Assembly (NCBI GenBank): GCA_017889705.1
Contig: JAGGAB010000014.1
Location: 1-64,000 of the forward strand
Source: Bacillota bacterium
GTDB taxonomy: Bacteria; Bacillota; Negativicutes; Sporomusales; Sporomusaceae
DNA: 64,000 nt
Reading direction: 5' to 3'
The notes beneath the pieces were generated by a model. That model did not search any database, had not been told where the DNA came from, and saw nothing but the letters and a program-made list of their open reading frames with translations. Shown here in pieces: positions 12,393 to 45,263 of this stretch (positions within the stretch are counted from its first letter, which is position 1; every line of letters starts with the position of its first letter). The position numbers and the translations under genes are program-made.

Positions 12393-13040
12393 TTAAAACT
12401 GTACTTCGAGTTCCACCGGTTTGGCACCAGGAACTACGTGTTCGGTTTCTTTGATATGAAGTACTGCCGCTTTGGCCTGGTACTTCGGACGAGCCATCTG
12501 GTCGTTTTTAGTCGGTACCGGTACCGGCGACTGACCTTTGGCATATTGAGCGGCGTTTTTGCCGATTTGCCGATAAGCCTCAAGGTCTAACAACGGAGAT
12601 TGAGAAAATAATTCAAGATTGCTCAGAGGCGGTAAGTCTTTTTGATGAATTACGGTTGTGCCTCTGGACTGGATACCAATAGAAATACCTGAACCACTGA
12701 GTTTTGTTGCGTCATGAGCGGCAAATGCCACGTCAGAGGTTCTGAGTACACGGATAACTCTTGCTTTTACGCCTTCTTCTTCAATACCGGCGATCATTTC
12801 GCGCAATACGTCGCTATGCGGCACATTGACGATGGTTTTATTTTGGTATTTGCCAAAAGCCGGAGCTATAGCAATGATTACTTCATCATTTCTGGTTCCC
12901 GGGCGGGCTTCACCCTTTTCCACCAGAGTCATGGAACGTCCGGTAGCCACGGCTGCTCTAGGAGCTGCAGGCTGTGCCATGCCGGCGAGAACTTGCCCAA
13001 CTATTTCGCGAATCAATTGTTCATTAATTTGCATTTCCAT
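12393..13040 (-). CDS. pduD: PduD, propanediol/glycerol dehydratase medium subunit
   Basis: A 215-residue beta subunit of diol dehydratase. Residues 1-20 ([20 protein letters not shown]) form the encapsulation helix known from Salmonella PduD, followed by an Ala/Pro linker. The body has [31 protein letters not shown] and [17 protein letters not shown], which help bind the cobalamin nucleotide loop. Starts at 13040 and 13034 are both near AGGAGAGGTGG; the first is listed. The longer frame to 13109 overlaps pduC and is rejected. Confidence 0.95.
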
Positions 13041-26330: not shown

Positions 26331-27326
26331 GTGGACAAAAAAAATGCAGCTATTACCGGGGTAGGTATCTGTGTTCCTAATCAAGTGCTCACTAATGATG
26401 AAGTGGCCAAATACACGAAAACCACAGCTGAGTGGATAGAGAGCCGGACGGGAATCAGCAAACGGCGTATTGCTAGTCCTGAGCAAGCAGCTTCTGATTT
26501 AGGGGTAATTGCGGCCGAACAGGCGTTAACTAATGCCGGACTATCTGCCAAAGACGTGGATTTAATCATTGCGGCAACTGCTACGCCTGATATGTTATTT
26601 CCTGCGACTGCCTGCATTATTCAGCATAAGCTCGGACTTAAAAACACAGCCGCCTTTGATTTAGAAGCAGGCTGCTCTGGTTTTATATATGCGCTCAATG
26701 TAGGCTCTCATTTTATTACCAGCGGGCAGTACCGCACCGTTTTAGTTATTGGTACAGAAGTACTGTCCCGATTGCTAGATTGGGAGGATCGTGAAACCAG
26801 TGTAATTATGGGTGACGGTGCAGGTGCTGTTGTGCTGCAACCGGCGCTGCCGGGCTATGGCATCTTGTCCTGCTGTCTGGGCGCCGATGGTTCCGGCGGC
26901 GAATATCTCCGGCTTCCTGCCGGCGGTTCCCGTATGCCAATTACGCATCAGGCGATTGACCAAAAAATGCATCTGTTTAAAATGAATGGCCCGGAGGTCT
27001 TTCGTTTTGCTATGCAAAAAGTACCGGAAGCTATTAATCAGGTTCTTGCCTTATCACAAACTTCGTTGGAAGAAGTATCGCTCATTGTTCCCCATCAAGC
27101 CAATCTGCGGATTTTGGAGGCGGTTGCCAGAGTCATGGATATTTCCATGGATAAATTTATAGTAAATATGGACAGGTATGGCAATACCTCTTCCGCCTCT
27201 ATTCCCATTGCATTATATGAGGCTTTGGCAGAAGGTCGAATCAACCATGGCGATCACATTGTCCTTACCGGCTTCGGGGCTGGCTTAACATGGGGTTCAA
27301 TTCATATGTGCTGGCAAGCTAAATAG
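26331..27326 (+). CDS. Beta-ketoacyl-ACP synthase III (first copy in the acyl cluster)
   Basis: A 331-residue KAS III-type thiolase-fold enzyme starting at GTG 26331. The catalytic triad is Cys115 (EAGCSGFIY), His255 (VPHQANLRI) and Asn285 (RYGNTSSAS). It condenses an acyl-CoA starter with malonyl-ACP. It is clearly paralogous to the KAS III at 28921-29919. It is not in a fatty-acid (fab) operon but beside a GNAT-like gene and a stand-alone acyl carrier protein, which suggests a specialised pathway. The ribosome binding site is weak (GGCGGG). Confidence 0.92.
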   Translation: MDKKNAAITGVGICVPNQVLTNDEVAKYTKTTAEWIESRTGISKRRIASPEQAASDLGVIAAEQALTNAGLSAKDVDLIIAATATPDMLFPATACIIQHKLGLKNTAAFDLEAGCSGFIYALNVGSHFITSGQYRTVLVIGTEVLSRLLDWEDRETSVIMGDGAGAVVLQPALPGYGILSCCLGADGSGGEYLRLPAGGSRMPITHQAIDQKMHLFKMNGPEVFRFAMQKVPEAINQVLALSQTSLEEVSLIVPHQANLRILEAVARVMDISMDKFIVNMDRYGNTSSASIPIALYEALAEGRINHGDHIVLTGFGAGLTWGSIHMCWQAK

Positions 27327-27401
27327 AGACTAGCATTCAGATAAAGGAGTTCTTAGTTTGCTTTACCCTCACTGGCACTAGCTGCAAGGAAGGAGCCTAG
27401 G

Positions 27402-28403
27402 ATGACTGAATGGTCAATTGTTCCTGTTGATAAAAATAATATTGGACAAGTTCCCGCTTTATTCCGAAAAGTATATGATGATGAGTATTTGCACAAAAAA
27501 GTATACCAGCCAGACATATTATGGCAGCAAATACAAACCGGAAATTTAGCGGCTGTGCTGGCTTATTCTCCGTCAGGCTTGCCGATTGGCTATGTGGCAT
27601 TAGGCAGATTGCATTCCAATCCTCGCCTTTGGGAAGAGCAAGGGCTGATTGTTGATCCGGCACACAAGGATTCGGGTGTAGCAGTTCCCTTGGCAGAATA
27701 CTTCACGAAACGGGAAAACCACCGAAATATCGAAATTGACGGCATATTTTCTTATGCGGTCTGTTATCATTATTTTACCCAGATAATTTGTGCAAAAGCC
27801 GGCTGGAATGATTGTTTTTTATTGCTGGATTATATCAACAAATCGCTTTATACCCGCCAACCAGCTGCTGACAGAGTAGCTTGCGTCATGATGTATTCGG
27901 AATTTATAGAGCAGACAAATGTCTCCTATTTACCACGCTGTTATGAAGAATTCATTCGTCAAATTTCCCAGCCTTTGTATCCAAGAGATTTTCAATTGGG
28001 AAAAGCTCTCTTGCCAAACAACCAAACGACCATTTGGGAAGAAGTCGGTCATCTGCCAACAGGCAGCAGGCAGATAGCAGTTCAAACCCTTGGCAGCGAT
28101 TGGTCAGAGGTAGCAGGAAACATTCTGGAGCATGCAAAGCAGCATAAGCTAATCAGCCTGCAGGTAATTCTTAATATGGCTTGTCCTTGTATTGATACGG
28201 CTGTAACTATCTTGCGGCAACAGGGATTTTTTCTTGGCGGTTTGGCACCTCGCTGGTTTGGCAGTGATGGTATTGTAATGCAAAGAATTCTGGATAAGGA
28301 GCCGGATTACAATACGATTAAACTATATACCAAAACCGGCAAAAATTTATTAGCTGCAATCCAAGCCGATCAGCAAACCGTGCAACAGCAATCTTTCCTG
28401 TAA
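27402..28403 (+). CDS. GNAT-like acyltransferase paralogue 1
   Basis: A 333-residue protein I place in the GNAT superfamily with moderate confidence. Residues about 5-110 have the alternation expected for motif D/A of GNAT (LFRKVYDDEYL, then AVLAYSPSGLPIGYVALG and EEQGLIVDPAHKDSGVAVPLAEY). The usual Q/R-x-x-G-x-G/A acceptor loop is replaced by HKDSGV. The C-terminal third has GFFLGGLAPRWFGSDGIVMQ, shared with two other proteins of the window (29930-30931 and 34647-35669) and weakly with 38211-39512. Start: AAGGAGCC then ATG 27402. Substrate and reaction are unknown. Confidence 0.65.
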   Translation: MTEWSIVPVDKNNIGQVPALFRKVYDDEYLHKKVYQPDILWQQIQTGNLAAVLAYSPSGLPIGYVALGRLHSNPRLWEEQGLIVDPAHKDSGVAVPLAEYFTKRENHRNIEIDGIFSYAVCYHYFTQIICAKAGWNDCFLLLDYINKSLYTRQPAADRVACVMMYSEFIEQTNVSYLPRCYEEFIRQISQPLYPRDFQLGKALLPNNQTTIWEEVGHLPTGSRQIAVQTLGSDWSEVAGNILEHAKQHKLISLQVILNMACPCIDTAVTILRQQGFFLGGLAPRWFGSDGIVMQRILDKEPDYNTIKLYTKTGKNLLAAIQADQQTVQQQSFL

Positions 28404-28406
28404 TCG

Positions 28407-28444
28407 AAAAAATCATTTAGAAAAAATGATTTTGTTTGTATAAT
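28407..28444 (+). promoter_or_regulatory. Terminator of GNAT-like gene 1 followed by a candidate promoter for the acyl carrier protein gene
   Basis: AAAATCATTT and AAATGATTTT form a hairpin (about 28408-28432) followed by a T-rich run. Directly after it is a perfect TATAAT (28439-28444) with a weak -35 (TTAGAA). The acyl carrier protein gene starts about 90 bases further on. Confidence 0.45.
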
Positions 28445-28535
28445 AGTAAACTATTACCTTTTCTCTGCTCACCACGGTACACCGAGCAATTGGGGGTGAT
28501 AGCACTATAGAATAATGTTGAGAGGAGAATTAACA

Positions 28536-28778
28536 ATGGCAACAATGGAAAGATTAAGCGGTGTAATTCTGAAGTTTAAAAAAGGTAAAATTTCGGAGGA
28601 AGCCCTTAAACCGGAAGCTTTGTTTGTAGAAAACCTAGGCTTTGATTCTCTGGATTTTAGCGAATTGCTTGTTCTGGTTGAGAATGAGTTTGGGTTGGAA
28701 TTGGAATTGGACGGTCTGAGACAGTATACTACGCTCCAATCTATGGTCAGCTATATTGACAGCCGTCTTGCTGGCTAA
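28536..28778 (+). CDS. Acyl carrier protein
   Basis: An 80-residue acyl/peptidyl carrier protein with the phosphopantetheine attachment serine Ser38 in NLGFDSLDFSELL. It starts at ATG 28536 after AGAGGAG. The usual fatty-acid ACP motif (DSLD) is kept, but the rest differs from housekeeping ACPs (a Lys-rich helix 1, FKKGKIS). It lies between two KAS III genes and probably carries the growing or starter acyl group of a specialised pathway. Confidence 0.9.
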   Translation: MATMERLSGVILKFKKGKISEEALKPEALFVENLGFDSLDFSELLVLVENEFGLELELDGLRQYTTLQSMVSYIDSRLAG

Positions 28779-28805
28779 ATTTATTGACTCTGTGGTAATG
28801 AAATG

Positions 28806-28857
28806 ACAAAAACCTCCGCTATTAGGTACAAAAAGGCTTGATAGAGGAGGTTTTTGT
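28806..28857 (+). terminator. Terminator after the acyl carrier protein gene
   Basis: ACAAAAACCTCC (28806-28817) pairs with GGAGGTTTTTGT (28846-28857), with CTAT/ATAG extending the stem, and ends in TTTTTGTT. Confidence 0.75.
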
Positions 28858-28920
28858 TATAACCATATATAATTGCTTATACGTTTTTCAGCCATACAAA
28901 ACTACCGTGGGGTGAAGAAT

Positions 28921-29919
28921 ATGTCTAAAAATAAGCTTCGGTCAGGTATTGCCGGCGTTGGTATGTATGTTCCCGACAAAACAGTGACCAATGCCGAATT
29001 GGAAAAAATTGTAGAAACCAGTGATGAGTGGATTCAATCCCGTACTGGAATTAAGGAGCGACATATTGCCAGTACCGAACAGGCGGCATCCGATCTGGGA
29101 GTTATTGCTGCAAAACAAGCCCTGGCAAACGCAAAAATTTCACCGTCAGAAGTAGATCTAATTATTGTTGCGACAGCAACTAGTGACATGCAATTCCCCT
29201 CTACTGCCTGCATCATACAGGCCGCTCTGGGGCTAAATGACGTTCCGGCTTTCGACGTGACAGCAGGATGTGCCGGCTTTATTTATGGGCTGTCTATAGG
29301 AAGTCAGTTCATTGAAAATGGGACATATGAAAATGTATTGGTAATAGGAACCGAAGTGTTATCGAAAATAACCAATTGGACAGATCGGGAAACCTGTGTA
29401 CTACTGGCTGACGGTGCTGGCGCAGTTGTGCTGCGTCCTGCTTTGCCGGGATACGGATTACTGGCTTTGCGTTTGGGGGCTGACGGCTCCGGTGGCAAAC
29501 ACTTATTGATGCCGGCGGGGGGGTCGCGTATGCCGGTAACGTCGGAGGCTATTGAGAAGAACCTAAATACCTTACATATGAATGGGCACGAAGTATTTAA
29601 GTTTGCCATGAAAAAACTGCCGGAAGCAGTGGAACAGGTATTGATGGCAGCCCAGATAGACAAGAACGAGGTTGCTCTAGTAATACCTCATCAGGCCAAC
29701 CGGCGCATCATTGAAGCTGCGGCTCGCAACTTAGAGATGCCTATTGAAAAGTTTATGATAAATTTAGACAGATACGGCAATACTTCTTCGGCCTCTATCC
29801 CGATTGCTTTGTATGAAGCTCTTGAGAATTACCTGATAAAACCAGGTGATAACATTGTTCTGGTTGGTTTTGGCGCAGGATTGACCTGGGGCGCTGTTGC
29901 CATGCGCTGGGGCATGTAA
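28921..29919 (+). CDS. Beta-ketoacyl-ACP synthase III (second copy)
   Basis: A 332-residue KAS III with catalytic Cys117 (TAGCAGFIYG), His257 (IPHQANRRI) and Asn287 (RYGNTSSAS). The start is ATG 28921 after GGGGTGAAG; the longer frame to 28873 lacks support. It resembles the first copy along its whole length, so a local gene duplication followed by specialisation is likely. Its stop codon is only 10 bases from the end of the convergent gene at 29930, leaving no room for a terminator between them. Confidence 0.92.
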   Translation: MSKNKLRSGIAGVGMYVPDKTVTNAELEKIVETSDEWIQSRTGIKERHIASTEQAASDLGVIAAKQALANAKISPSEVDLIIVATATSDMQFPSTACIIQAALGLNDVPAFDVTAGCAGFIYGLSIGSQFIENGTYENVLVIGTEVLSKITNWTDRETCVLLADGAGAVVLRPALPGYGLLALRLGADGSGGKHLLMPAGGSRMPVTSEAIEKNLNTLHMNGHEVFKFAMKKLPEAVEQVLMAAQIDKNEVALVIPHQANRRIIEAAARNLEMPIEKFMINLDRYGNTSSASIPIALYEALENYLIKPGDNIVLVGFGAGLTWGAVAMRWGM

Positions 29920-29929
29920 GAATGGCGCC

Positions 29930-30931
29930 TCAGCGATTTACTGCTTCGCGATCAGCACGGATAAAAGCCAGCAAATCTTTGGCTGTTTTGCTGTATAGCT
30001 TAATCTGCTCATAATCAGGTTCTGTCTCCAGTAATTTTTGCAGCAGCAATCCGTCGCTGCCAAACCACTGTGGCAGCAAGCCACCCAGGAAAAACCCACG
30101 GTCCCGCATAGCTTTTACAGCTGCACCCAAAGCAGGGTAAGCTGTATTGACAGCAATTTGCAGACTGATTACCTTTCTGCTGGCAGCTTCATGTAATAGT
30201 TCATCTAGGCAAGCCAGCCAGTCGGCACCAATTTCCCGGACAGAAATCTTCCAAGTCTGAGCTGCTGCGTAATAATTTTCCTCTCTGACAGTCAAGCCAG
30301 TCATAGGCAGGGGGCCATCGGCTGGCAAAATTGCTCTCGGTTTCAAAGACTGAACTAAACTACCCACAATCCCTACATATTCTGGCGGAACATAAACAGG
30401 GGTAATTGGCTCCGACTTTTCCTGAAAACTCATCACACAGGATATTCGTTGGGAAGACACAGCACGATGATCTTTGAAACTTTCAGCTGAGAGTTGCAAC
30501 AATTCTATGGCGCAATCATGCAGTCCTGATTTGGCGGCACCAATTTGCGTAACATAATGGTGGCACACGGCTTCGCAAAAAATACCGTTGTAGTCAGTAA
30601 GACCGATAACTGCTGGCTCAAAGTAAATTTTTGTTAACAGTGACGATAAATTACTATATTTGAAAGCAGGATGTATTACCATATTTCCGGCCTCCCACAA
30701 CCGGGGGTTAGGAGCATTTTTAAACATAGAAACATAACCTGCCGGCTGCCCCTGCCAGTCAAAAGCCAAAGCAGCATTTACGCGGCCGGCAGAAATTTCC
30801 TGCCATAAGATGTCCGGATCATATACATCTTTAACCGGAAAATCGTTACCATATACTGACTGGAATACAGTACTAACGTGTCTGACATTAATACTGTCTA
30901 CCGGCACAATCTGAAATTCCTCAGCAACCAA
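29930..30931 (-). CDS. GNAT-like acyltransferase paralogue 2
   Basis: A 333-residue protein, the last gene of the minus-strand operon. It starts with TTG 30931, six bases after GGAGGGG. It is the closest relative of the protein at 27402-28403 (VYDPDILWQEISAGRVNAAL near residue 40; GFFLGGLLPQWFGSDGLLLQ near residue 290; PDYEQIKLYSKTAKDLLA near the end). GNAT-like strands appear in the N-terminal half, with ALAFDWQGQPAGYVSMF and AGNMVIHPAFKYSNLSSLL. The acyl-CoA loop is again non-canonical. Function unknown. Confidence 0.65.
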   Translation of the reverse strand: MVAEEFQIVPVDSINVRHVSTVFQSVYGNDFPVKDVYDPDILWQEISAGRVNAALAFDWQGQPAGYVSMFKNAPNPRLWEAGNMVIHPAFKYSNLSSLLTKIYFEPAVIGLTDYNGIFCEAVCHHYVTQIGAAKSGLHDCAIELLQLSAESFKDHRAVSSQRISCVMSFQEKSEPITPVYVPPEYVGIVGSLVQSLKPRAILPADGPLPMTGLTVREENYYAAAQTWKISVREIGADWLACLDELLHEAASRKVISLQIAVNTAYPALGAAVKAMRDRGFFLGGLLPQWFGSDGLLLQKLLETEPDYEQIKLYSKTAKDLLAFIRADREAVNR

Positions 30932-30996
30932 CCATTTCCCCTCCAGTACCTGTGTGTTATAAAATGTACAAACCTCTATTTATATATTTCTAAACT

Positions 30997-31842
30997 TTAC
31001 CGTGATTGCAAATGTGAGCTTAATGACAACAGCAAATTGCCTGCTACTTGCCGCCGGTAGGCGGCACCAGCCCGGACATCATTAATCGGACTGACACCGT
31101 CAGCTGCCAACTTCGCAGCCTGCCGTAAAACATCTGTTGTCAAAACTTTTCCCTTGAGAAAGGCTTCCACTTCCGGCAGCATGACAATAGTTTTTCCCAC
31201 ACTGCCCCAGGCTAGTTTAATTTGATTCAATCTGTTATCCTGCCCTAATTCCAGTAAAACAGCCAAACTGACAACGGCAATCGCCAACGCTTGGCGTTTG
31301 CCAACCTTATAATAATGAGACTGCACCGCTTCTGCCGGCAGCGGCAAGCTAACTCCAGTCACAATTTCGCCTGGCTGCAATACTGTACTGCCAGGTCCCA
31401 GAATAAACTCCACAATAGGCACCCTGCGCAATCCCCGTACACTTGCCACCACTACTACCGCACCAAAAACATAAAGTGGTGCCAGCGTATCGCCTGCCGG
31501 CGAGGCTGTGCAAAGATTGCCGCCCAAGGTAGCACAATGCCTGATGGGCGGAGATGCAAATACATTCAACGCCTCCCACAATGCCCGAAAACGTTTCTGA
31601 ATGATTTCATGCTCCAGCAACTGCTGAATAGTTACACCGGCTCCGATAAAAAGCCCATCTTGCTCCTGGGTTATTGTTTGCAGATTAGGTAATTTTTCGA
31701 GGGCAAACAGCACCGGCACCTTTTCACCGCTTTTGCGCAGCCGCACTAAAAGGTCGGTTCCCCCTGCTAGTATTTGCCCGGCAGGGTACTGCTCAAACTG
31801 ACGCCACAACTCTTCCAGCGAGGTCGGAAAGAAAATGTGCAT
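30997..31842 (-). CDS. Molybdenum hydroxylase FAD-binding (medium) subunit
   Basis: A 281-residue CoxM/XdhB-type flavoprotein subunit. FAD-binding motifs QILAGGTDLLV and ATLGGNLCTASPAGDTLAPL are clear. It starts at ATG 31842, overlapping the stop of the 2Fe-2S subunit gene (TAATG), so the pair is translationally coupled. It passes electrons from the Fe-S subunit to NAD+ or another acceptor. The order large, small, medium in the direction of transcription (32312-34666, 31842-32315, here) is one of the usual arrangements. Confidence 0.93.
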   Translation of the reverse strand: MHIFFPTSLEELWRQFEQYPAGQILAGGTDLLVRLRKSGEKVPVLFALEKLPNLQTITQEQDGLFIGAGVTIQQLLEHEIIQKRFRALWEALNVFASPPIRHCATLGGNLCTASPAGDTLAPLYVFGAVVVVASVRGLRRVPIVEFILGPGSTVLQPGEIVTGVSLPLPAEAVQSHYYKVGKRQALAIAVVSLAVLLELGQDNRLNQIKLAWGSVGKTIVMLPEVEAFLKGKVLTTDVLRQAAKLAADGVSPINDVRAGAAYRRQVAGNLLLSLSSHLQSR

Positions 31843-32315
31843 TAACTCTCCCTCCCTTGCAGCTGGCGGGCTGCCATTAATACGGCTTCCACAATTTTTT
31901 GATAACCAGTACAGCGGCAAAGGTTGCCACTCAACCCTACCCGCACCTGGTCTGGCGTCGGATCAGGGCAGCGATTTAGTAAATCAAGCGAGGCCAAAAT
32001 CATACCAGGGATGCAAAAACCGCACTGTACGGCACCGCAATCAATAAAGGCCTGCTGCATAACATGTAGCCTTTCTTCAATAGCTACGCCTTCCGCTGTG
32101 AGAATTTGGCGATTTTCGAGCTGTGCTGCCAGCATAAGGCAAGACAGGCGGCTTTCGCCGTCAACCAAAATTGTGCAAGCACCGCACTCGCCAGCCCCAC
32201 AGCATTCTTTTACACCGGTAAGCCCCAGATCTTCCCGCAGCAAATCCACCACCCGGCGGTCAGGTTTGGTTTCTATCGTAGTTTCTTTGCCATTGAGTAT
32301 AAATGTCAGCTTCAT
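31842..32315 (-). CDS. Molybdenum hydroxylase 2Fe-2S (small) subunit
   Basis: A 157-residue CoxS/XdhC-type protein with two [2Fe-2S] sites: the plant-ferredoxin type CCGAGECGACTILVDGESRLSC near residues 38-58 and the helical-domain type CGFCIPGM...CRCTGY near residues 98-138. It links the molybdopterin site with FAD. Its start overlaps the stop of the large subunit gene by four bases. Confidence 0.95.
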   Translation of the reverse strand: MKLTFILNGKETTIETKPDRRVVDLLREDLGLTGVKECCGAGECGACTILVDGESRLSCLMLAAQLENRQILTAEGVAIEERLHVMQQAFIDCGAVQCGFCIPGMILASLDLLNRCPDPTPDQVRVGLSGNLCRCTGYQKIVEAVLMAARQLQGRES

Positions 32316-34666
32316 GAATTGCCCGCCTTTCTGTTTTTTTCCATTGCCAGCAAAATCTTTTCAGCTGTCAGCGGGCCGCCGGCAATTCTTGTTCCGGTTA
32401 TGGAAGCAATAGCATTTGCCAGCGCCGGCAAAATACCGTTAACCCCAATCTCGCCGACACCTTTCATGCCAAACGGGCCGTCATCCTGATTAAGCGGAAC
32501 AACAATCGTCTCCATCGGGGGTAAATCAAGTGCAGTCGGCAAAATATAGGTGGAAAAATCACCTGTCACAATTTTGCCCTCTTTGACGATAAAATCTTCA
32601 AACAAAGCATATCCCAGCCCCTGCGCCGCACCGCCCTGGATTTGCTGTTCAAATAGTTGCGGATTAAGCACCCGTCCAGCTTCCACACAGGTTAATAAAT
32701 CACAGACTCTAACACTACCTGTCAGTTGGTCAACCTCTATCCGGACCAATTGAACGGCAAAAGAAAATATCTTATGGGGATAGCCATGTATGCGAAGATT
32801 AGCGCCAGTAGCAGGAATCTGCGCAGCAGGTTCACAGGTATAGCTATAGGTTGCCACACGCTCGGTCGCATCCATCATACTTGCGGCCAGCGCAATTGGT
32901 ATTCCCTTACCGGAAGCACCGTGTACAATCCGGCCCGGCAAAAGCAGCAAATCATCTCGCTTAACCGCTGTAAGCATTTGGAATGATAAGATTAACGCCG
33001 CCCTGTCAAGCAACTTGTTTTTTAACAATTCAGCCGCACCAATCAAAGCATTACCATAGGTAAACGTCGTCCGGCTGGCCGAAGAGGACGCGGACGGCAG
33101 TGTCAGCGAAGTATCAGGTAAAATCAATTCCATAGCCTCATAAGGCTGGCATAAAATGTGGCTGACAATCTGCAAACAAGTTGTCGCATTACCCTGCCCC
33201 ATATCAGCCACCCCGGAGTATACACTGATGGTTCCATTAGCCTTGAGTTCTAGCTTGGCATTAGCATAATCGGCAACACTGGGGCCAAAGCCCTGACAAT
33301 GATGACAAGCAGCTAGGCCAACACTCCGTTTTGTGAAAGGCGGAGCCGCCTGTTCCCATTCCTCCCGTTCTAACCAAAGTCTATGCTTATGCACAGTTTC
33401 CAGACATTCGGTAAACCCGGCTGCACTAGTAAGCACTACACCAGCCGGAGTGGTATCGCCACGCCGCAAGGCGTTTTTCAACCGGAACTCAAGCGGATCA
33501 AAGCTACCCAGTTTAACCAATTCATCAACAGCCTGTTCAATCCCGGCAGTAGCCTGCGGCACACCAAAACCGCGGAAAGCACTGGCCACCGGATTATTGG
33601 TATATACGGCCATCCCCTGAATAGAAGTATGCTCAATGCGATAAGGTCCGCCGGCATGTTCCATCGCCAATGCCAACACCTGCCCGCCTAAGGCTGAATA
33701 AGCTCCGCTGTCAAACACCAACCTGCAGTCGAGAGCGCGCAAATATCCGTCCTTATCACAACCCAATCGGTAAGTAAGTTCTCCCGGATGCCGCTTGGTT
33801 CCGGCAAGTATGCTCTCTTCCCGTGAATACCATATCTTTACCGGTCGGCCGCCGGAATGAAAAGCAGCCAGTGCCAAAAAACCTTGAACAGTAACCCCGT
33901 CCTTGCCGCCAAACCCACCTCCAAGATAAGGGGCCGTCACCCGCATTTTCATCGGCGAAATGCCTAATGCCTCAGCCAGCTCCAGCCGGTCACGAAACGG
34001 CGTTTGAGTCGATACAATCATATGTAATAGTCCTGCTTCATCAAGCCAGGCAACCCCAGTCTGCGTTTCCAAAAAAGCGTGTTCCTGCCAGTTAACCGTC
34101 ACAGTCACTTCTGCTACTAAATCACACTCAGACAAATAAGCGGCTCCCCGACCACAGCTAATTTCGCCGCTAAGCAAAATATTGCCATCAGGCCGCCCTT
34201 CATGCAGCAGGGGCGCATCTTGTTTTAACGCATCCTTGGCCGCAAACACCGTCGGTATTGGTTCATACTCAACGACTACAGCCGCCAAACCCTGTGACAA
34301 AGCCGTTTGGGTTTCTGCAATAACCAGCGCCACTGCATCCCCTAAATGCCGCACCTTATCATCCGCCAAAATGGGCTGGTCTTTTTCAAAAATCCCCAGG
34401 CGATTACTGCCCTTAATATCTTTAGAAGTTAGTACGGCAACAATCCCAGGCACCTGCTCGGCAGCAGCAATGTCGATATGCTTAATATAGGCATGCGCGT
34501 GTTCTGAGCGCTTTACTCCCGCCCAGACGAAGTTTTCAGGATAATAGTCTGCTGCATATTTCTCTTGTCCGGTAACCTTGCCCACGGCATCTACTCTTGG
34601 CGCATTGCGCCCAATCTCAAATTGGCCGCCGACAGCCTGCTCCAATTTATATTGTAGTGTTTCCAC
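32312..34666 (-). CDS. Molybdenum hydroxylase molybdopterin-binding (large) subunit
   Basis: A 784-residue xanthine-dehydrogenase-family large subunit. GGGFGGKDGVTVQGFLALAA, SAFRGFGVPQATAGIE (the substrate arginine region) and the catalytic glutamate in MKGVGEIGVNGILPALANA are visible. It lacks the CO-dehydrogenase active-site loop with its cysteine, so it is not an aerobic CO dehydrogenase. Such enzymes hydroxylate N-heterocycles or aldehydes with water. The likely start is GTG 34666, downstream of AAGGAGG and overlapping the end of the upstream GNAT-like gene. Its location inside the acyl/aminotransferase cluster suggests a heterocyclic substrate; the specific one is unknown. Confidence 0.93.
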   Translation of the reverse strand: METLQYKLEQAVGGQFEIGRNAPRVDAVGKVTGQEKYAADYYPENFVWAGVKRSEHAHAYIKHIDIAAAEQVPGIVAVLTSKDIKGSNRLGIFEKDQPILADDKVRHLGDAVALVIAETQTALSQGLAAVVVEYEPIPTVFAAKDALKQDAPLLHEGRPDGNILLSGEISCGRGAAYLSECDLVAEVTVTVNWQEHAFLETQTGVAWLDEAGLLHMIVSTQTPFRDRLELAEALGISPMKMRVTAPYLGGGFGGKDGVTVQGFLALAAFHSGGRPVKIWYSREESILAGTKRHPGELTYRLGCDKDGYLRALDCRLVFDSGAYSALGGQVLALAMEHAGGPYRIEHTSIQGMAVYTNNPVASAFRGFGVPQATAGIEQAVDELVKLGSFDPLEFRLKNALRRGDTTPAGVVLTSAAGFTECLETVHKHRLWLEREEWEQAAPPFTKRSVGLAACHHCQGFGPSVADYANAKLELKANGTISVYSGVADMGQGNATTCLQIVSHILCQPYEAMELILPDTSLTLPSASSSASRTTFTYGNALIGAAELLKNKLLDRAALILSFQMLTAVKRDDLLLLPGRIVHGASGKGIPIALAASMMDATERVATYSYTCEPAAQIPATGANLRIHGYPHKIFSFAVQLVRIEVDQLTGSVRVCDLLTCVEAGRVLNPQLFEQQIQGGAAQGLGYALFEDFIVKEGKIVTGDFSTYILPTALDLPPMETIVVPLNQDDGPFGMKGVGEIGVNGILPALANAIASITGTRIAGGPLTAEKILLAMEKNRKAGNS

Positions 34667-35669
34667 CGTTGTCTTTAACCTCCTTCCAATCCTGCTTAAC
34701 CAATTCCAATATTCTTTCAGACCGTTTGGTATAGAGCAATATTCCATCAAAGTTGGGGGTTCCGACTATCTTCTGCATTAAACAACCATCCTCATCAAAC
34801 CAGCGTGGCAAACAACCGCTAATAAAATACCCTCGCTGCCGCAAAACATTGACAACCGCGCCTGTCCACGGTTGAGTTAATCGGAAGAAAACCTGTTTCA
34901 CTACTATCCCGTCAACGCTAGTCTCTTGCTCCATTTTATCCAAACAAGCCGCAAAATCAGCGCCAATTTCGATGAAAGTAATACGTGCCACCCCGGCACT
35001 GACAAATAAGTCACACTTGCCCACGGTCACCACATCTTGAGGCAAATCACCGACACCACGCATAAAGGCATGACCATAGTCAGGCCCTTCATATAAAAAT
35101 GGAAGCACTTTTTCATATACCGACGGTACATAAATAGTCTGCGGCTTTGGTTTATACGTGCGGAAAAGCAGTAGTGCCGATACCCGCGTAGCAACCTCGG
35201 GCGAATTCTTCAAAGAGCTGGCAGATGCATTACCCGGCATCAAGTCAATCTCCATACCTGTTTCACAAAAACCTTGCTGCAAACCTACCTTTTGGGAGAA
35301 AATATGATTGGAAACAGCCTCCAGCCAGACTGTTTCCATTGCATGTTGGACTGGTATTTTTTCCAAAGCATACTTGCACAATTGCAGAGAAATCCTACTT
35401 TTCCGGTAATCAGGTCTCACCATCAGCTGACCATGTTCATATAACTCACGATTTGGCGGAGAAGAACTAAAAAAGGCAACCATACCAATCACCTTACCTG
35501 ATTGTGTACGAGCTACAACCCGATATGCATCACCTTGGCTTTGCCGGATATATTCTGCCGAGTCATATACTGTCTTAATCGGGTAATTTTCGCCATAAAC
35601 CGCCCTATAAAGTTCAACAACTCCTGCAGCATCCTCCGGGCTAAACATGTCGATTTCCCAATCCTCCAT
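34647..35669 (-). CDS. GNAT-like acyltransferase paralogue 3
   Basis: A 340-residue protein starting at ATG 35669, five bases after AGGAGG. The N-terminal half is the most GNAT-like of the set (VVELYRAVYGENYPIKTVYD, then RVVARTQSGKVIGMVAFF and HGQLMVRPDYRKSRISLQLC), with RKSRIS at the acyl-CoA loop instead of the usual glycine-rich loop. The C-terminal GYFISGCLPRWFDEDGCLMQ aligns with the two closer paralogues. Its 3' end overlaps the start of the molybdenum hydroxylase gene by about 20 bases, so the two are probably co-translated. Confidence 0.68.
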   Translation of the reverse strand: MEDWEIDMFSPEDAAGVVELYRAVYGENYPIKTVYDSAEYIRQSQGDAYRVVARTQSGKVIGMVAFFSSSPPNRELYEHGQLMVRPDYRKSRISLQLCKYALEKIPVQHAMETVWLEAVSNHIFSQKVGLQQGFCETGMEIDLMPGNASASSLKNSPEVATRVSALLLFRTYKPKPQTIYVPSVYEKVLPFLYEGPDYGHAFMRGVGDLPQDVVTVGKCDLFVSAGVARITFIEIGADFAACLDKMEQETSVDGIVVKQVFFRLTQPWTGAVVNVLRQRGYFISGCLPRWFDEDGCLMQKIVGTPNFDGILLYTKRSERILELVKQDWKEVKDNGGNTTI

Positions 35670-35689
35670 AGAATCCTCCTCTTCTCCTA

Positions 35690-37081
35690 TCATTGGCAAA
35701 CAGCCGTCTTGTCCGTTTCGCATTTTTTTTCACCTTTAGCAAGCAGCTTAATTAATAGTCCAATAGCCACTAGCCCGGCAATAAACGTAGACGCCGGATG
35801 GCTCCAAAACACGCCCTGGCCGCCCCATAGTCCGGCAAGCCAATAAGCCAGGGGAAGCCGCAATACAACAATATATAAAATAATCATAGTCAACATATAA
35901 ACCGGACGTTTTAATCCTTGCGCCATGCTATTCAGAGCAATTAGCAACGGCGCAAACACCATGGATACCCCTGCAGCATGAACAGCAACGCTGGCCAAAA
36001 CCAAAAGTTCAGGAACTGGTTTATAAATATACAATAACTCATGGGAGAAGAAAAAAAAGAGTAACGCCGCTGGCATAATGATACAGCAAGCCAATATAAG
36101 AAAAGTCTTCAATCCGGCTCGTATCCGATTATAATCCTGTCGTCCCATATTAAAACCGGCGAACACAGCCAATGCATTGCCCATACCCGCTACAGGCAAT
36201 AACACCATCATCTCCATGCGTGACATCATATTCCAAGCACCAATTGCGTTTGGCCCAAACTTAGCAAGTATACCGTTTAGCACCATTATCCCTATCGGGC
36301 TAACCAAAAAACCTACTGTAATAAATAGTCCCTGTTTAAGAATCTGCCCCCATGCGCTAAGCATGGTTTTATCCGGAATAAAGGACAACGCAGTTCCGGT
36401 TAGCTTGCAGTACTTTCTTCCTAAATACAAAGCTGCTGCAAATTGGGCGATGAAAGTAGCGCCGCCTGCCCCGGCTACTCCCCATTTCAATCCAAAGATG
36501 AACAGCGGATCAAGACAGATATTGATGATATTGCCTAAAATCATGCCCTTCATAGGTGTTACGGTATCACCGTTACTCATCAGCAGTGCTTCCACCGCCA
36601 TCGAATAACCGAGCACGGGAAACCCCAATACCATCCAGACAGTAAACCAGTAAACCTGCTCTAAAATCTCTCCACTGGCACCTAGCAAAGAAAAAAAGCG
36701 ATTACATACCTCAACTGATAATAGCGGCAATAGCAAACACATAACCATTGTCATCAGAGGCAGTACCGCGCGGCTTACCGCCTCTGCCCCAGCCTGATCG
36801 CCAGCACCGCGTGCGTACCCAATGATGACGGCGCTTCCCATTCCAACTCCCTTGGCCAGCGAAAAAGCTACATAAGTAAGCGGAACAGCCATCGATATAG
36901 CTGCTAAAGGAACTCCACCCAACCAAGATACAAAGATTGTATTAATGAAGGAATATAGGTTTTGAAAGAACATGGAAAGCATCATTGGCACTGCTAAGCA
37001 AATAATTACGCCTGATACTGAACCGCTTGCCATATCTACCTGACTACCGCCTGCCAATAGCCGTTGCACCTTATTTAACAT
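35690..37081 (-). CDS. MATE-family efflux transporter
   Basis: A 463-residue membrane protein with about twelve hydrophobic segments and MATE/NorM features (FQNLYSFINTIFVSWLGGVP in segment 1-2, YARGAGDQAGAEAVSRA, GFNMGRQDYNRIRAG in the second half). MATE proteins export cationic or amphiphilic small molecules using H+ or Na+. It lies 10 bases from the aminotransferase gene and 20 bases from GNAT-like gene 3, and is likely the exporter of whatever this operon makes. Confidence 0.92.
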   Translation of the reverse strand: MLNKVQRLLAGGSQVDMASGSVSGVIICLAVPMMLSMFFQNLYSFINTIFVSWLGGVPLAAISMAVPLTYVAFSLAKGVGMGSAVIIGYARGAGDQAGAEAVSRAVLPLMTMVMCLLLPLLSVEVCNRFFSLLGASGEILEQVYWFTVWMVLGFPVLGYSMAVEALLMSNGDTVTPMKGMILGNIINICLDPLFIFGLKWGVAGAGGATFIAQFAAALYLGRKYCKLTGTALSFIPDKTMLSAWGQILKQGLFITVGFLVSPIGIMVLNGILAKFGPNAIGAWNMMSRMEMMVLLPVAGMGNALAVFAGFNMGRQDYNRIRAGLKTFLILACCIIMPAALLFFFFSHELLYIYKPVPELLVLASVAVHAAGVSMVFAPLLIALNSMAQGLKRPVYMLTMIILYIVVLRLPLAYWLAGLWGGQGVFWSHPASTFIAGLVAIGLLIKLLAKGEKKCETDKTAVCQ

Positions 37082-37090
37082 AGTACACCA

Positions 37091-38209
37091 TCATTTCTTC
37101 AGTACTTCAGTCAAAGCTTTGATAAATCCTTCCATCACCGGCAATGGCTGTAAGGTTACTCGGATATGATTGGGAAAACGAAATCCTGTCATGGTTCTCA
37201 CCATGTATCCTAAACGCATGAGTTTACGATAAATAAGCATGTCACTCATTGGCAGGCGAATAATAACATAACTGCCTTCCCCAGCTATAAAAGGTATATT
37301 GAGACACGTTAATTCACTCGTAAGATAATTCCTGGACTCCCGAATCATGGCCCGGGTTTTAGCCATATGCTCATCTGCATCAATTAGCGTTGCCAAAGCA
37401 GCTGTCTGCGCCAAGGCATTTACCGAATATACCACACATGTGCGCCGAATAACATCAACCACTTCCAGACTTCCTGCCAAATAGCCAATCCTAAGTGCCG
37501 CCAAACCAAACATCTTGGAAAATGTCCGAAACACTACCAGATTAGGGTAATCCTTAATCAGTTCCATACAATCCGGGAAATCAGGTGCTTCCACAAACTC
37601 AGAATAGGCTTCATCGACAACAACGATCGTGCGCCCGTCTATTTTATCAAGAAAAGCCTTTAGCCTCTCTTTGTTCCAATAAGTCCCGGTCGGATTATTG
37701 GGGTTGCAGACAAACACGATTTTGGTACGTTCATCAATCGCTGATAACATTGCCTGGTCATCAAAACCATAATCCTTAAGTGGTATGAGCTTGGCTTCAA
37801 ATCCAGAAAACTCAGCTACCCACTCATATACCGCAAAGGTCTTATCAGCAGTAATAATATTGTCACCTTTCTGGCAAAAGGCATTAATTGCAAAAGCAAT
37901 AACCTCATTGGCGCCATTACCTACCAAAAAAGCATCTGGTGACAAGCCAAACCGTTCGCCTAAACGGCAGCGCAAGAAGTAGGCATCACCGCTTGGATAT
38001 ACAGCCGCCTGTACCGGGTCAAAATTCTTAATCGCCGCTAAGGCAGCAGTGGTTGGCCCCAAGGCATTTTCGTTATTATTAAGGCGATGCAGCGTACTGC
38101 AGCCATACATTTCCTTAAGCACCGCATCAGGTTTACTGGGAATATAGGGCTCAATTTTCCTAATATGGGGTGGAACCAGTACATCAAGTGCAGGAAACTT
38201 TCCCGGCAT
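37091..38209 (-). CDS. Class I/II PLP aminotransferase, HisC-like
   Basis: A 372-residue fold-type I aminotransferase resembling histidinol-phosphate aminotransferase: RLNNNENALGPTTAALAAI at the N-terminus, NPNNPTGTYW for the cofactor-binding Asn, VVDEAYSEF, and the Schiff-base lysine in FRTFSKMFGLAALRIGYL. The start is ATG 38209 after GGGGAGG; a longer frame exists but overlaps the upstream gene. No other his gene is nearby, and its position in the acyl cluster suggests it supplies or removes an amino group on a pathway intermediate rather than making histidine. Confidence 0.9.
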   Translation of the reverse strand: MPGKFPALDVLVPPHIRKIEPYIPSKPDAVLKEMYGCSTLHRLNNNENALGPTTAALAAIKNFDPVQAAVYPSGDAYFLRCRLGERFGLSPDAFLVGNGANEVIAFAINAFCQKGDNIITADKTFAVYEWVAEFSGFEAKLIPLKDYGFDDQAMLSAIDERTKIVFVCNPNNPTGTYWNKERLKAFLDKIDGRTIVVVDEAYSEFVEAPDFPDCMELIKDYPNLVVFRTFSKMFGLAALRIGYLAGSLEVVDVIRRTCVVYSVNALAQTAALATLIDADEHMAKTRAMIRESRNYLTSELTCLNIPFIAGEGSYVIIRLPMSDMLIYRKLMRLGYMVRTMTGFRFPNHIRVTLQPLPVMEGFIKALTEVLKK

Positions 38210-38210
38210 A

Positions 38211-39512
38211 CTAAAATACCTCCCCCTGCTGAAACAACACCAAATCACCATATCCTCCCCAGGGAAGAACCAAACGGGGAGTAAAACCAGCACCAAGTAA
38301 TGCCGGCACCAAAAGAGCTTCCTCAGCTTTACCGGCATCTAAATAAAAGAATAGGTTAACTATGCCTTCTTGCCGCAAAAACACTACATGTTCTTTCAGG
38401 TTATTAAGGGCATCTTGTCCCACTGCCAACACTGACAAAAAGGCCTGACCCCGCGGCCAGTCGAGCGCCACCGAAAAGGCTGAGTGCGCGAGGATAGCTT
38501 CGCCCGCATACTCTGTTGTCAGCAAAGTGCGCGGCAAAACCAGACGATCATAACTTTCTTCCATAAATCCTGCTATTTTAGGGTGCACAAACACCTTAGC
38601 ACCATTATCCTCTTCCAGCTGCCGATATAGCACCTGATGTTTGACATCCTCTTTCTCGACATCGCCGGCTGTAATAGCAATCTCGCCCAAGGTCTCAAAA
38701 TAATCTTGCGGCACTTCTGTTGTCGGCTGCAAATTGACCATGCAGAGCGCCTGGCTCCGTGCCAATTTAATCAGCGCTTGATCGGTAACTGCCTGAGCAA
38801 GGTCTTCCTGACCAATAAACATATAGGGACCAAAGAACTCTATCATTTTACCGGTTTGCCGCCAAAATATACCGCCACCGACATATCCCTGCTTGTTTAC
38901 CGCCAGTACCGCATCATATTCGCCACTGGCGACCATGTCAACGACTTTGCCGGGAAATGCAAAAAAAGCGGGGGCAATTTTTGCATAGGCCTTACTTACC
39001 CGCTTGGCAAACTGTTTCAATATTTCATGACTGGTGGCCTGCACAACATAACCGTCCTGTTCAACAAGCGGTTCAAGGCCAGTTGACGCCGCCGGATACT
39101 CTTTTTCCACCACCAACCGCAATTCCAGGAATTCACGGTTTTCCCGCACAACCTCTAAACGGTCAACCGCCCGTGCAGCGAGCAGCAGCCCCATTTCTTC
39201 CAACGAGGCATCATCATCCAAACTGACCTTAGCTGTTATATTAAAAGCTGCCGCAGGCAGGATATGCAAAGGAAATAAACAGGCCAGTACCACATAATAT
39301 CCTCCATTGCGGCAAGTCACTCGCACAGTACTTTGCTGTTCATCTTGTTTAGCCAAAAAAACAAATAACTCTTCCATCGCCAGCACCAGTTTATGCTGCT
39401 GCGCCTGGGTTAATCCGAAAGCCTTTCCTGTCTGTTCAGCAAAACCTGTCACTACCGGCAGCATTTCAGTTATCAGTAGAACTGATATTTCAGCAGTCAT
39501 TATATTGCTCAT
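38211..39512 (-). CDS. HATPase (anti-sigma-factor-like) domain fused to a GNAT-like module
   Basis: A 433-residue protein and the first gene of the minus-strand operon. Residues about 1-130 resemble the RsbW/SpoIIAB-type HATPase_c_2 fold, with AFGLTQAQQHKLVLAMEEL at the N-box position and LEEMGLLLAARAVDRLEVV at the G2 box. The N-box asparagine needed for kinase activity is missing. Residues about 150-433 follow the plan of the GNAT-like paralogues nearby (AVLAVNKQGYVGGGIFW, KVFVHPKIAGFM, then GAGFTPRLVLPWGGYGDLVL at the C-terminus). It starts at ATG 39512 after GGAGGG. It could sense nucleotide or act as a scaffold. The function is unknown. Confidence 0.65.
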   Translation of the reverse strand: MSNIMTAEISVLLITEMLPVVTGFAEQTGKAFGLTQAQQHKLVLAMEELFVFLAKQDEQQSTVRVTCRNGGYYVVLACLFPLHILPAAAFNITAKVSLDDDASLEEMGLLLAARAVDRLEVVRENREFLELRLVVEKEYPAASTGLEPLVEQDGYVVQATSHEILKQFAKRVSKAYAKIAPAFFAFPGKVVDMVASGEYDAVLAVNKQGYVGGGIFWRQTGKMIEFFGPYMFIGQEDLAQAVTDQALIKLARSQALCMVNLQPTTEVPQDYFETLGEIAITAGDVEKEDVKHQVLYRQLEEDNGAKVFVHPKIAGFMEESYDRLVLPRTLLTTEYAGEAILAHSAFSVALDWPRGQAFLSVLAVGQDALNNLKEHVVFLRQEGIVNLFFYLDAGKAEEALLVPALLGAGFTPRLVLPWGGYGDLVLFQQGEVF

Positions 39513-42043: not shown

Positions 42044-42739
42044 CTAGTTTTCCAAGGCAAACCTAACAGCAGCCTCGGCATGCAGGGTCATAGTATCAAA
42101 AACCGGCACAGTTACATCAGCCTGCTTAATGAGGAGTGGAATTTCGGTGCAGCCCAGCACAATTCCCTCAGCCCCTTGCACTACCAGGTTATTGATAATC
42201 TTTTGAAACTCTTCTTTCGATTGCTGACTAAGGATACCCAAACACAGTTCCTGGAAGATTACGTTGTTAATCCTATGCCGCTCAGCTTCTTCCGGTATGA
42301 TAACTTCAATTCCATGCTGTTCATTAAGACGTTGCCGATAGAAATCCTCTTCCATGACAAATCGCGTTCCCAAGAGGCCCACTTTCTTGACGCCTTGTTC
42401 TTTACTCTTTTGTGCAGCCGCATCGGCAATATGGATAAGCTGCATTCCAGTCTGTTCTCTTATACTGTCAGCGCATTTATGCATGGTATTGGAACAAATC
42501 ATAAGAAACTCTGCCCCGCCTCGCTGCAGCCGCAGTGCCACATCAACAAGCAGCTTGTCAATCTGCTGCCAGTCTCCCTGCCGCATGTGTTCTTCAACAG
42601 GTCCAAAATCAACCGAATACAGCAAACTTTGTGCCGAATGAAGCCCGCCTAACCGATCTTTTATGCCTTCATTAATCAGCCGGTAATATTCTACCGAAGA
42701 TTCCCAGCTCAGTCCGCCAATAAGGCCTATTGTCTTCAA
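42044..42739 (-). CDS. Aspartate/glutamate racemase family protein
   Basis: A 231-residue racemase with the two catalytic cysteines in MICSNTMHKCAD and VLGCTEIPLLIK and the N-terminal IGLIGGLSWESSVEYYR typical of the aspartate racemase group. It interconverts L- and D-amino acids, probably aspartate or glutamate, without PLP. Its start overlaps the phzF stop by four bases (ATGA), so the two genes form one operon with the upstream mocR-type regulator. Confidence 0.9.
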   Translation of the reverse strand: MKTIGLIGGLSWESSVEYYRLINEGIKDRLGGLHSAQSLLYSVDFGPVEEHMRQGDWQQIDKLLVDVALRLQRGGAEFLMICSNTMHKCADSIREQTGMQLIHIADAAAQKSKEQGVKKVGLLGTRFVMEEDFYRQRLNEQHGIEVIIPEEAERHRINNVIFQELCLGILSQQSKEEFQKIINNLVVQGAEGIVLGCTEIPLLIKQADVTVPVFDTMTLHAEAAVRFALEN

Positions 42740-43626
42740 AACCGCAGCTCTCCTTCCAGTACAGCCACTGCGCTGCCGCCGACTTTAACAGTCGTGACCT
42801 TGTCAGCCTGTTTACTGACAAGGATACTGACTTTGCCGGGGCGTCCCACTTCCAGACCGGCTTCCCCCACCCAGGCAGTCTCCCCATCCACACTTAGTAG
42901 ATTATGAGCGGCAATATAGGCAGTTGCCGAACCGTTTCCAGTCCCACAAACCGGATCTTCATTGATGCCATCCATTGGACAAAATGCTCGGGAATGGAAA
43001 CTGCAATCCGGCTGCGCCGTTTCCAGGCAAAACGGTACAAAACCTTCAAACCCGCATTTTTTACTCATAGCAGTAATTGCGGAAAAGTCGGGCTGCGCCT
43101 GACTTAATTTTGCAAGGCTTTTGACACCGATTACCAGCCACCACAAACCGGTAGACACTTTTAACGGTTTTTCAGCAATCAAATCCTCAGCCGCAAGCCC
43201 TAAGCCAGCAGCAATTTCTTCTCTTGTCAGTTCGACTTCAGCCAGCTGCGGCACCGCCTGAGTCATCATAAAAGTCACCTGGTTTCCCGCTTTTATGACT
43301 TCAACCGGCAGAACCCCAGCTTTGGTTTCCTGATAAAAAACATTTTTGGACTGATCAAGTTTTCCCTCTGCATATAGTGTGGCAAATGTAGCAATAGTCG
43401 CATGCCCGCATAGCGGCACTTCAGTATTGGGCGTAAAAAACTGCACTTTAAAATCAGCCACAGCAGACTGAGAGACAAACGCGGTTTCCGACAGATTCAT
43501 CTCGCGAGCAATCTTTTGTTTCTGCTCATCATTGAGATTATTGGCATCAGTGACTACTCCAGCCGGGTTGCCACCAAACGCTTGGGTTGTAAACGCATCC
43601 ACCTGTTTAATTTTCACAGTATTCAT
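42736..43626 (-). CDS. PhzF-family isomerase
   Basis: A 296-residue PhzF-like protein with QVDAFTTQAFGGNPAGVV at the N-terminus, the catalytic Glu in NLSETAFV, PLCGHATIATFA, and DPVCGTGNGSATAY in the second half. The family has a diaminopimelate-epimerase-like fold and performs isomerisations; most members have no known substrate. It starts after CAGGAGGCG, 24 bases from the regulator gene. Together with an amino-acid racemase and a MocR regulator it may act on a D-amino acid or amino-acid-derived compound. Confidence 0.9.
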   Translation of the reverse strand: MNTVKIKQVDAFTTQAFGGNPAGVVTDANNLNDEQKQKIAREMNLSETAFVSQSAVADFKVQFFTPNTEVPLCGHATIATFATLYAEGKLDQSKNVFYQETKAGVLPVEVIKAGNQVTFMMTQAVPQLAEVELTREEIAAGLGLAAEDLIAEKPLKVSTGLWWLVIGVKSLAKLSQAQPDFSAITAMSKKCGFEGFVPFCLETAQPDCSFHSRAFCPMDGINEDPVCGTGNGSATAYIAAHNLLSVDGETAWVGEAGLEVGRPGKVSILVSKQADKVTTVKVGGSAVAVLEGELRF

Positions 43627-43649
43627 CCAAGATCGCCTCCTGGTATTAT

Positions 43650-45164: not shown

Positions 45165-45263
45165 CAAATCACTCTTCTTTGTACTTTTAGGATTGGTACC
45201 ATCCAATTATCATTTTACCAGATATATTATTAAAAGAAACCGCCAATTGGTATATCTTGCAGC

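Follow-up and report, generated by a model that had tools for sequence, protein, structure and literature searches.

A conserved and apparently undescribed gene cluster of tandem GNATs, KAS III enzymes and a molybdenum hydroxylase in a Sporomusa-like anaerobe

The 64,000-nucleotide stretch of DNA analysed here (the window) is part of one contig (C113) of the 5.0-Mb genome of a Sporomusa-like anaerobe (G000), a congener of Sporomusa malonica (G011), and carries at positions 26331-39512 a 13-kb block of 12 genes. These encode KAS III enzymes, a stand-alone acyl carrier protein (ACP), tandem GNATs, a HisC-like aminotransferase, a MATE transporter, a three-subunit molybdenum hydroxylase, and a fusion of an anti-sigma-like HATPase domain to a GNAT region. 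The block is a real and conserved cluster for biosynthesis and export, notable for its unusual regulatory fusion, and it is apparently undescribed. We think it fairly probable that it constitutes a single accessory biosynthetic cluster of the Sporomusa-like lineage, for carrier-protein-dependent acylation of an amine by tandem GNATs, molybdenum-dependent oxidation, and export through the MATE transporter. The window assembly is listed with 8.78% contamination, and ownership of the contig by this genome is thus not beyond doubt.

Organization and recurrence of the two modules

All 12 open reading frames (ORFs) that a first-pass annotation had placed in this block were found, with minor corrections of start codons only (Table 1). 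The plus strand runs KAS III, tandem GNAT, ACP, KAS III, and the minus strand, read from 39512 down, encodes the HATPase/GNAT fusion, the HisC-like aminotransferase, the MATE transporter, a tandem GNAT, CoxL, CoxS, CoxM, and a further tandem GNAT. The two gene sets face each other, their last stop codons only 10 bases apart, and are thus separate transcription units; the start codons of CoxL, CoxS and CoxM overlap the end of the preceding gene, which bears out the tight spacing and overlapping starts described earlier. ORFs were called mechanically throughout, and the preferred starts of the ACP, second KAS III, CoxM, CoxL, third GNAT (34647) and aminotransferase genes were chosen by homolog length and ribosome-binding sites. 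A promoter and terminator scan returned 33 promoter-like sites (shuffled mean 23.9, standard deviation 5.4) and 28 terminator-like sites (shuffled mean 15.5, standard deviation 4.8), from which we draw no inference.

The limits of the block are apparent from the recurrence of its genes elsewhere. Complete window ORFs of at least 90 amino acids (overlaps resolved by length; the ACP and coxS genes added by hand) were compared with 70 loci drawn from a GTDB collection by a tandem-GNAT query, with thresholds of at least 30% identity, at least 60% of the query covered, and E up to 1e-10. The aminotransferase is matched in 34 of the 70 loci, coxS in 31, the fusion in 29, coxL and coxM in 27 each, each KAS III in 8, the ACP in 8, and the MATE gene in 6; the tandem GNATs match 14, 30 and 61 loci, counts that follow by construction from the query. 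Forty-five of the 48 flanking ORFs outside the cluster match none of the loci, and the three that do (744-, 40347- and 61101-) match 1, 2 and 4 of them; an ORF antisense to coxS (31924+), which matches 29 loci, was excluded from the flanking count. With cluster genes recurring 6 to 61 times and nearly all flanking ORFs never, the boundaries at 26331 and 39512 are real. Locus counts are not genome counts, since several sets of loci share a genome or contig (L056/L064/L068; L059/L063; L100/L117; L067/L114; L082/L089; L088/L090; L075/L079; L054/L061; L085/L115). Many of the loci derive from metagenome-assembled genomes (MAGs), and many contigs are short.

The block is composed of two conserved modules. 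A core consists of the HATPase/tandem-GNAT fusion, the HisC-like aminotransferase, a transporter, a tandem GNAT, and the three-subunit molybdenum hydroxylase; a wing consists of KAS III, ACP, and wing-type tandem GNATs. Core hosts include Negativicutes, Clostridium, Pelotomaculum, Geobacter, and many Desulfo- and Syntropho-named lineages, and in six other genomes the wing is joined to all or part of the core (L055; L056/L064; L057; L040; L041; L060). In two genomes from another family of the same order, G022 (L039) and G025 (L040 and L157), the genes form a single same-strand run in the order fabH, tandem GNAT, ACP, tandem GNAT, fabH, MATE, tandem GNAT, ligase, ACP, coxL, coxS, coxM, HATPase/tandem-GNAT fusion, hisC. 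The 7.4-kb contig of L055 shows the fusion, aminotransferase and MATE gene as its sole core genes, followed by the wing, and L060 belongs to a Geobacter MAG.

Among 75 loci, including five added from whole-genome searches, the fusion, aminotransferase and coxL occur together in 24, and a MATE or MFS match is present in 20 of these; in core-only relatives the MATE gene is usually replaced by an MFS transporter. The aminotransferase adjoins the fusion in 34 of 35 loci (the same pair being counted twice, in L056 and L064), the sole exception, L040, being truncated at the end of the stretch, with hisC following in L157. The aminotransferase is found without the fusion in L069, L093 and L101, and many of the 75 loci show a tandem GNAT alone. 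In S. malonica (L043, 12608-13396) a ThiF-family (E1-like) enzyme is encoded between the MATE and aminotransferase genes.

The distribution is uneven even among closer relatives. Any similarity to the three window tandem GNATs (E up to 0.001) is limited to 12 of the 28 genomes of the order; of the nine that represent the window's genus, the window genome and S. malonica alone give strong matches, and two others give weak ones. In a sample of the phylum, 5 of 398 genomes match at E up to 1e-10. One of these is the window's own, and the core is present in three of the remaining four (G042, G161, G410). Judged by these matches, the block looks like accessory metabolism.

Co-occurrence in other Negativicutes, which the first-pass annotation had put forward as a check, was thus found, and it extends to other phyla; it strongly supports the earlier claim of one biosynthetic and export locus. 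Neither a scattering of the genes nor a placement of each in a known separate pathway was seen, although the two modules also occur apart. What that annotation missed was the two-module build, the spread of the core far beyond the Negativicutes, and the degenerate anti-sigma fold with partner-switching genes nearby in relatives. Its suggestion that the product is an exported acylated amine or heterocycle, perhaps a signal or a respiration-active compound, stays conjectural.

Enzymes and a predicted pathway

The GNAT-like genes recognised in the first pass are corroborated by a PF00583 match of the 34647 protein (E 4.8e-7), by cross-identities, and by a structure model, and each encodes a tandem GNAT. 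For the 27402 and 29930 proteins, Pfam and NCBIfam gave no match at E up to 0.01. The two are 39% identical to each other and 26% and 29% identical, respectively, to the 34647 protein, and are recognisable as GNATs because of this similarity and the GNAT structures matched by the AlphaFold model of the 29930 protein (mean pLDDT 94.3). Each of the two is a double GNAT of about 333 amino acids; mycothiol acetyltransferase is also a tandem GNAT. The 29930 model has the GNAT fold and matches single GNAT structures, and one of the top hits, a histidine acetyltransferase, aligns with it from end to end, though poorly (TM 0.33). A tandem-GNAT profile search against PDB sequences gave marginal matches only, the best at E 0.035. 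Glu80 (in the strand of residues 78-86), Gln129, Gly284, Phe290 and Asp293 are among the residues invariant in all 54 homologs; a glutamate in that strand is the usual general base of GNATs, and Glu80 is a candidate for this role. The function of malonyl-ACP decarboxylase (MadA) was considered for the GNATs and ruled out, as the hot-dog domain and not the GNAT does the chemistry there (according to the accessible text of PMC8666670).

Phylogenetic reconstruction separates the tandem GNATs into a wing clade of 13 members and a core clade of 41, with support 100/100. Gene 29930, which lies on the minus strand with the core genes, falls in the wing clade and so forms a link between the two strands. 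ACP and KAS III are also present in all eight relative loci whose wing tandem GNATs are in the tree; L061, left out of the tree for its broken tandem-GNAT frame, has the ACP and lacks KAS III. At L064 and L068, both from one MAG, matches to the core tandem GNAT and the ligase lie in one open frame.

Pfam and NCBIfam assignments uphold the two KAS III enzymes, ACP, MATE transporter, HisC-like aminotransferase, and complete molybdenum hydroxylase of the earlier reading. Both KAS III enzymes pass the FabH/KAS III model (415.6 and 439.6 bits; cut-off 249), and both have the Cys-His-Asn triad, which is present in 18 of the 19 aligned sequences, L059 having Ser for the catalytic His. They group with Negativicutes wing KAS III (12 rows, support 100/99), apart from two other FabH proteins of the window genome. 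The aminotransferase barely passes the hisC model (280.6 bits; cut-off 276.55), and the cluster aminotransferases form a clade (99/98) apart from two relatives in the window genome, which were the only outgroups in that tree, both with very long branches, HisC of other genomes being left out. These two are a HisC-like gene in a his operon (C111) and a CobD-like protein in a cobalamin operon (C36); the genome also has a FabH in a fab operon (C64) and a fourth FabH on C5, the operon neighbours being named by eye. Because the his and fab operons have copies of their own, the cluster copies look dedicated. Ordinary HisC or FabH paralogs were accordingly rejected as an identity, each of the his, cobalamin and fab operons holding its own copy, as was the HisC of histidine synthesis, since the cluster gene lies outside the his operon and in another clade.

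The molybdenum hydroxylase shares with PucD, nicotinate dehydrogenase and 4-hydroxybenzoyl-CoA reductase the three-subunit Mo/2Fe-2S/FAD architecture of the xanthine dehydrogenase (XDH) family, but all three of its subunits fall below the curated cut-off of each NCBIfam subfamily listed. Two specific identities were rejected on these scores, namely 4-hydroxybenzoyl-CoA reductase (alpha 436.6 of 994.55, beta 135.4 of 404.55, gamma 164.6 of 257.8 bits) and xanthine dehydrogenase (pucD 533.5 of 783.65, XdhB 199.7 of 310, XdhC 172.6 of 217 bits). Seven XDH-family molybdenum-subunit matches were counted in the window genome, the cluster enzyme among them, and two lie about 10 kb apart on C152.

In the pathway that we propose, the KAS III enzymes would join an acyl-CoA to the malonyl group carried by the cluster ACP, giving a beta-ketoacyl thioester, the HisC-like aminotransferase would make an amine, and the tandem GNATs would acylate this amine with groups taken from the carrier protein; the molybdenum hydroxylase would oxidise the scaffold or an intermediate, and the MATE transporter would export the product. 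An adenylating ligase is present in the clusters of several relatives, where the core GNAT is probably supplied by this adenylate-forming enzyme together with a second ACP. What the analysis demonstrates is the gene content, its conserved clustering, the additional and apparently dedicated paralogs, the folds, the missing N-box Asn of the fusion, and the presence of partner-switch genes close to the core of relatives; the use of acyl-ACP as donor, the sequence of reactions, the class of product and the mode of regulation are inferred. The best homolog of the ligase in the window genome, encoded on C152, was considered as a ligase for the pathway and rejected, being a match of only 43% and fused to an unrelated-looking N-terminal region.

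A degenerate anti-sigma fold and partner switching

The N-terminus of the fusion protein scores 18.2 bits against HATPase_c_2, under the Pfam cut-off of 27.4. In its structure model (pLDDT 89.5), UsfX, RsbW and SpoIIAB are matched at the N-terminus and GNATs behind it, and the model thus vindicates the HATPase-GNAT fusion, a first-pass assignment, as real despite the sub-cut-off sequence match. Four stand-alone RsbW-like proteins are encoded near the core in relatives, and in an alignment that took in 12 of the 29 fusions the N-box Asn of all four falls opposite residue 52 of the window protein. None of the 29 fusions has Asn at this position, which is occupied by Y, F, H, S or V, the preceding column holding Asn in two of them (L119 and L123). 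The N-box Asn functions in the use of Mg-ATP, and its loss from every fusion suggests that the anti-sigma-like domain probably no longer works as a kinase.

The fold of the fusion N-terminus recalls the partner-switching systems RsbW/SpoIIAB-RsbV/SpoIIAA-RsbU/SpoIIE, as do the neighbours of the core: a STAS match or a Cache/HAMP/SpoIIE (PP2C) sensor match occurs in 12 of the 24 full-core loci, S. malonica included, with Pfam confirmation of SpoIIE covering L056 and L071, the two loci scanned. It differs from those systems in the replacement of the N-box Asn and in the joining of the domain to a tandem GNAT, and the genes scanned include no recognisable sigma factor. The fusion is most likely an adaptor through which STAS proteins may gate the pathway by partner switching. 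Only tentatively do we extend this to a previously undescribed class of pathways shared by anaerobes of several phyla, in which tandem GNATs would assemble an exported acyl-amine from carrier-protein thioesters. Through the pseudo-anti-sigma/tandem-GNAT fusion, a STAS/SpoIIE switch that responds to extracytoplasmic sensors would then control the making of a metabolite and not transcription. The locus raises the question of whether the targets of partner switching can be enzymes in place of sigma factors.

Related genes are found elsewhere. On contig C26 of the window genome (L165, G000:C26:36000-50050, at 7565-12540) lies a trio encoding an ATP-grasp protein (D-Ala-D-Ala-ligase-like, by eye), a Cache/HAMP/PP2C sensor and a Cache-MFS protein, 74-78% identical to a trio that is directly upstream of the core in Clostridium thailandense and is on another contig here. 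A STAS-like gene on C152 was rejected as a regulator, with 38% identity over 99 residues only and no link to the cluster seen. At L171 (8001-9545) a 514-amino-acid protein combines an RsbW-like domain (29%) with a tandem GNAT (25%), and several relatives (L047-L053) encode proteins of about 490-600 amino acids that end in a tandem GNAT; by these similarities, anti-sigma/GNAT fusions may form a wider family.

Alternative explanations and known systems

Several observations weigh against a single, STAS-gated acylation pathway. The converging strands require separate promoters. The wing occurs without the core (here and below, within the fetched DNA of up to 10 kb each side) in L054, L058, L059 and L062, and the core without the wing in most loci, for example in S. 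malonica, C. thailandense, Pelotomaculum, and many Desulfo- and Syntropho-named MAGs. G021 has nearly the same gene set, but its first fabH is set off from the remaining genes by some 5 kb of other ORFs, and its core tandem GNAT is about 0.9 Mb away beside another ligase-like gene. Five wing KAS III sequences (L054, two in L058, L060, L062) branch elsewhere, with FabH of the window genome in between, and wing KAS III is therefore not one clade. No adenylating ligase was found in the window cluster by the Pfam and NCBIfam scans, and six C. thailandense queries revealed no STAS, RsbW-kinase or SpoIIE-like gene in the window. The pyrophosphate loop (P-loop) is incomplete or degenerate in the 29930 and 34647 proteins, leaving their donor, or even catalysis, uncertain, and in the GNAT region of the fusion itself the Glu is conserved in no more than 22 of 29 sequences.

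Some of these points would suit two separate pathways lying side by side, the wing making one acylated product and the core another, with adjacency reflecting shared regulation or joint transfer. Each module is found without the other in several genomes, and in UBA1444 they are on different contigs (L059, L063); wing and core tandem GNATs form separate clades, and the wing KAS III do not form a single clade. We nonetheless consider this unlikely, as the modules lie together both in the window and in six further genomes, which include a Geobacter MAG, and a wing-clade tandem GNAT is encoded on the core strand of the window. A catabolic or detoxifying locus, in which the molybdenum hydroxylase (with the ligase in relatives) activates aromatic acids or N-heterocycles, GNATs conjugate them, and the MATE or MFS transporter expels them, would accord with the anaerobic lifestyle of the named hosts, with the top PDB hits for the Mo subunit, which are 4-hydroxybenzoyl-CoA reductase and nicotinate dehydrogenase, and with the feruloyl- and coumaroyl-CoA ligases among the best matches of a relative's ligase. 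Two extra KAS III and an ACP suggest building rather than breaking, however, no ring-cleavage or beta-oxidation-like gene occurs among the genes scanned in or near the cluster, and the Mo subunits score far below the cut-offs of known families, and we therefore judge such a locus to be quite unlikely. Finally, an assemblage of unconnected housekeeping paralogs (histidine synthesis, fatty-acid initiation, purine breakdown, multidrug efflux) could account for an aminotransferase just over the hisC cut-off and for two KAS III that pass fabH, but separate his, cobalamin and fab operons exist and the gene set recurs across phyla; this explanation is extremely improbable and is refuted as far as synteny and extra copies allow.

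The reading of one acylation, oxidation and export cluster finds partial parallels in known systems. FeeM-type N-acyl amino acid synthases carry out GNAT-superfamily amide synthesis from acyl-ACP; they are autoinducer-synthase-like single domains, and we know of no Mo hydroxylase or HisC-like gene associated with them. They are named in the accessible text of PMC6331615, which describes in the SB-203208/altemicidin (sbz) cluster the GNATs SbzI and SbzC with the ACPs SbzG and SbzK and the adenylate-forming SbzB and SbzL. SbzI and SbzC take acyl groups from ACPs loaded by adenylating enzymes, a precedent that supports carrier-to-amine acyl transfer by GNATs, and SbzC is reported to be similar to mycothiol acetyltransferase (PMC6331615). 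As in sbz, GNATs are encoded here with a stand-alone ACP, and in relatives with adenylating ligases too; unlike the present cluster, sbz is from Streptomyces and has a known product, and that text mentions for it no KAS III, Mo hydroxylase or anti-sigma-like fusion (PMC6331615). No description of such a cluster was found in the open-access literature searched, a scope outside which most subscription papers and preprints lie. Few metabolites are, to our knowledge, known from Sporomusa-like acetogens, sulfate reducers and syntrophs, and a conserved, regulated, exported product common to all of them could serve the partners of anoxic communities as a signal, redox carrier or protectant.

Table 1. 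Genes of the cluster in the window, with upstream ORF openings where these differ from the preferred start.
Feature	Coordinates	Strand	Evidence
KAS III (FabH family) 1, wing module; Cys-His-Asn triad present	26331..27326	+	Pfam/NCBIfam; alignment, tree
Tandem GNAT, wing clade, without Pfam or NCBIfam match	27402..28403	+	Profile scans, identity to other GNATs, tree
Stand-alone acyl carrier protein, GFDSLD Ser site	28536..28778 (ORF opens 28515)	+	PP-binding match, start analysis
KAS III (FabH family) 2, wing module, sharing 62% identity with KAS III 1; Cys-His-Asn triad kept	28921..29919 (ORF opens 28873)	+	Pfam/NCBIfam; alignment, tree, start analysis
Tandem GNAT, wing clade, on core strand	29930..30931	-	Identity, AlphaFold model, structure matches, tree
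Mo hydroxylase FAD subunit (CoxM/XdhB-like)	30997..31842 (ORF opens 31920)	-	NCBIfam, start analysis
Mo hydroxylase 2Fe-2S subunit (CoxS-like)	31842..32315	-	NCBIfam
Mo hydroxylase Mo-cofactor subunit (CoxL/XdhA-like), GTG start behind GGAGG	32312..34666 (ORF opens 34750)	-	NCBIfam, PDB matches, start analysis
Tandem GNAT, core clade	34647..35669 (ORF opens 35723)	-	Pfam, tree, start analysis
MATE efflux transporter	35690..37081	-	Pfam/NCBIfam
HisC-like pyridoxal-phosphate aminotransferase, apart from two own-genome relatives in tree	37091..38209 (ORF opens 38338)	-	Pfam/NCBIfam, tree, start analysis
Pseudo-RsbW (HATPase fold without N-box Asn) fused to tandem GNAT-like region	38211..39512	-	Sub-cut-off Pfam match, structure model, alignment

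Just outside the cluster, at 42736-45206 of the window, a PhzF-family isomerase gene lies beside one for a MocR-like PdxR-type regulator; neither recurs in the 70 loci. Two short contigs among the relatives may be misplaced. The 3.2-kb contig of L123, binned as Methanoculleus, carries the fusion, the aminotransferase, and part of a tandem GNAT, and is probably mis-binned because its aminotransferase groups with Firmicutes. The 4.3-kb contig of L045 (G024:C36) encodes a ligase and a tandem GNAT that are 77% and 71% identical, respectively, to those of the Geobacter MAG (L060), and is perhaps foreign to its bin.

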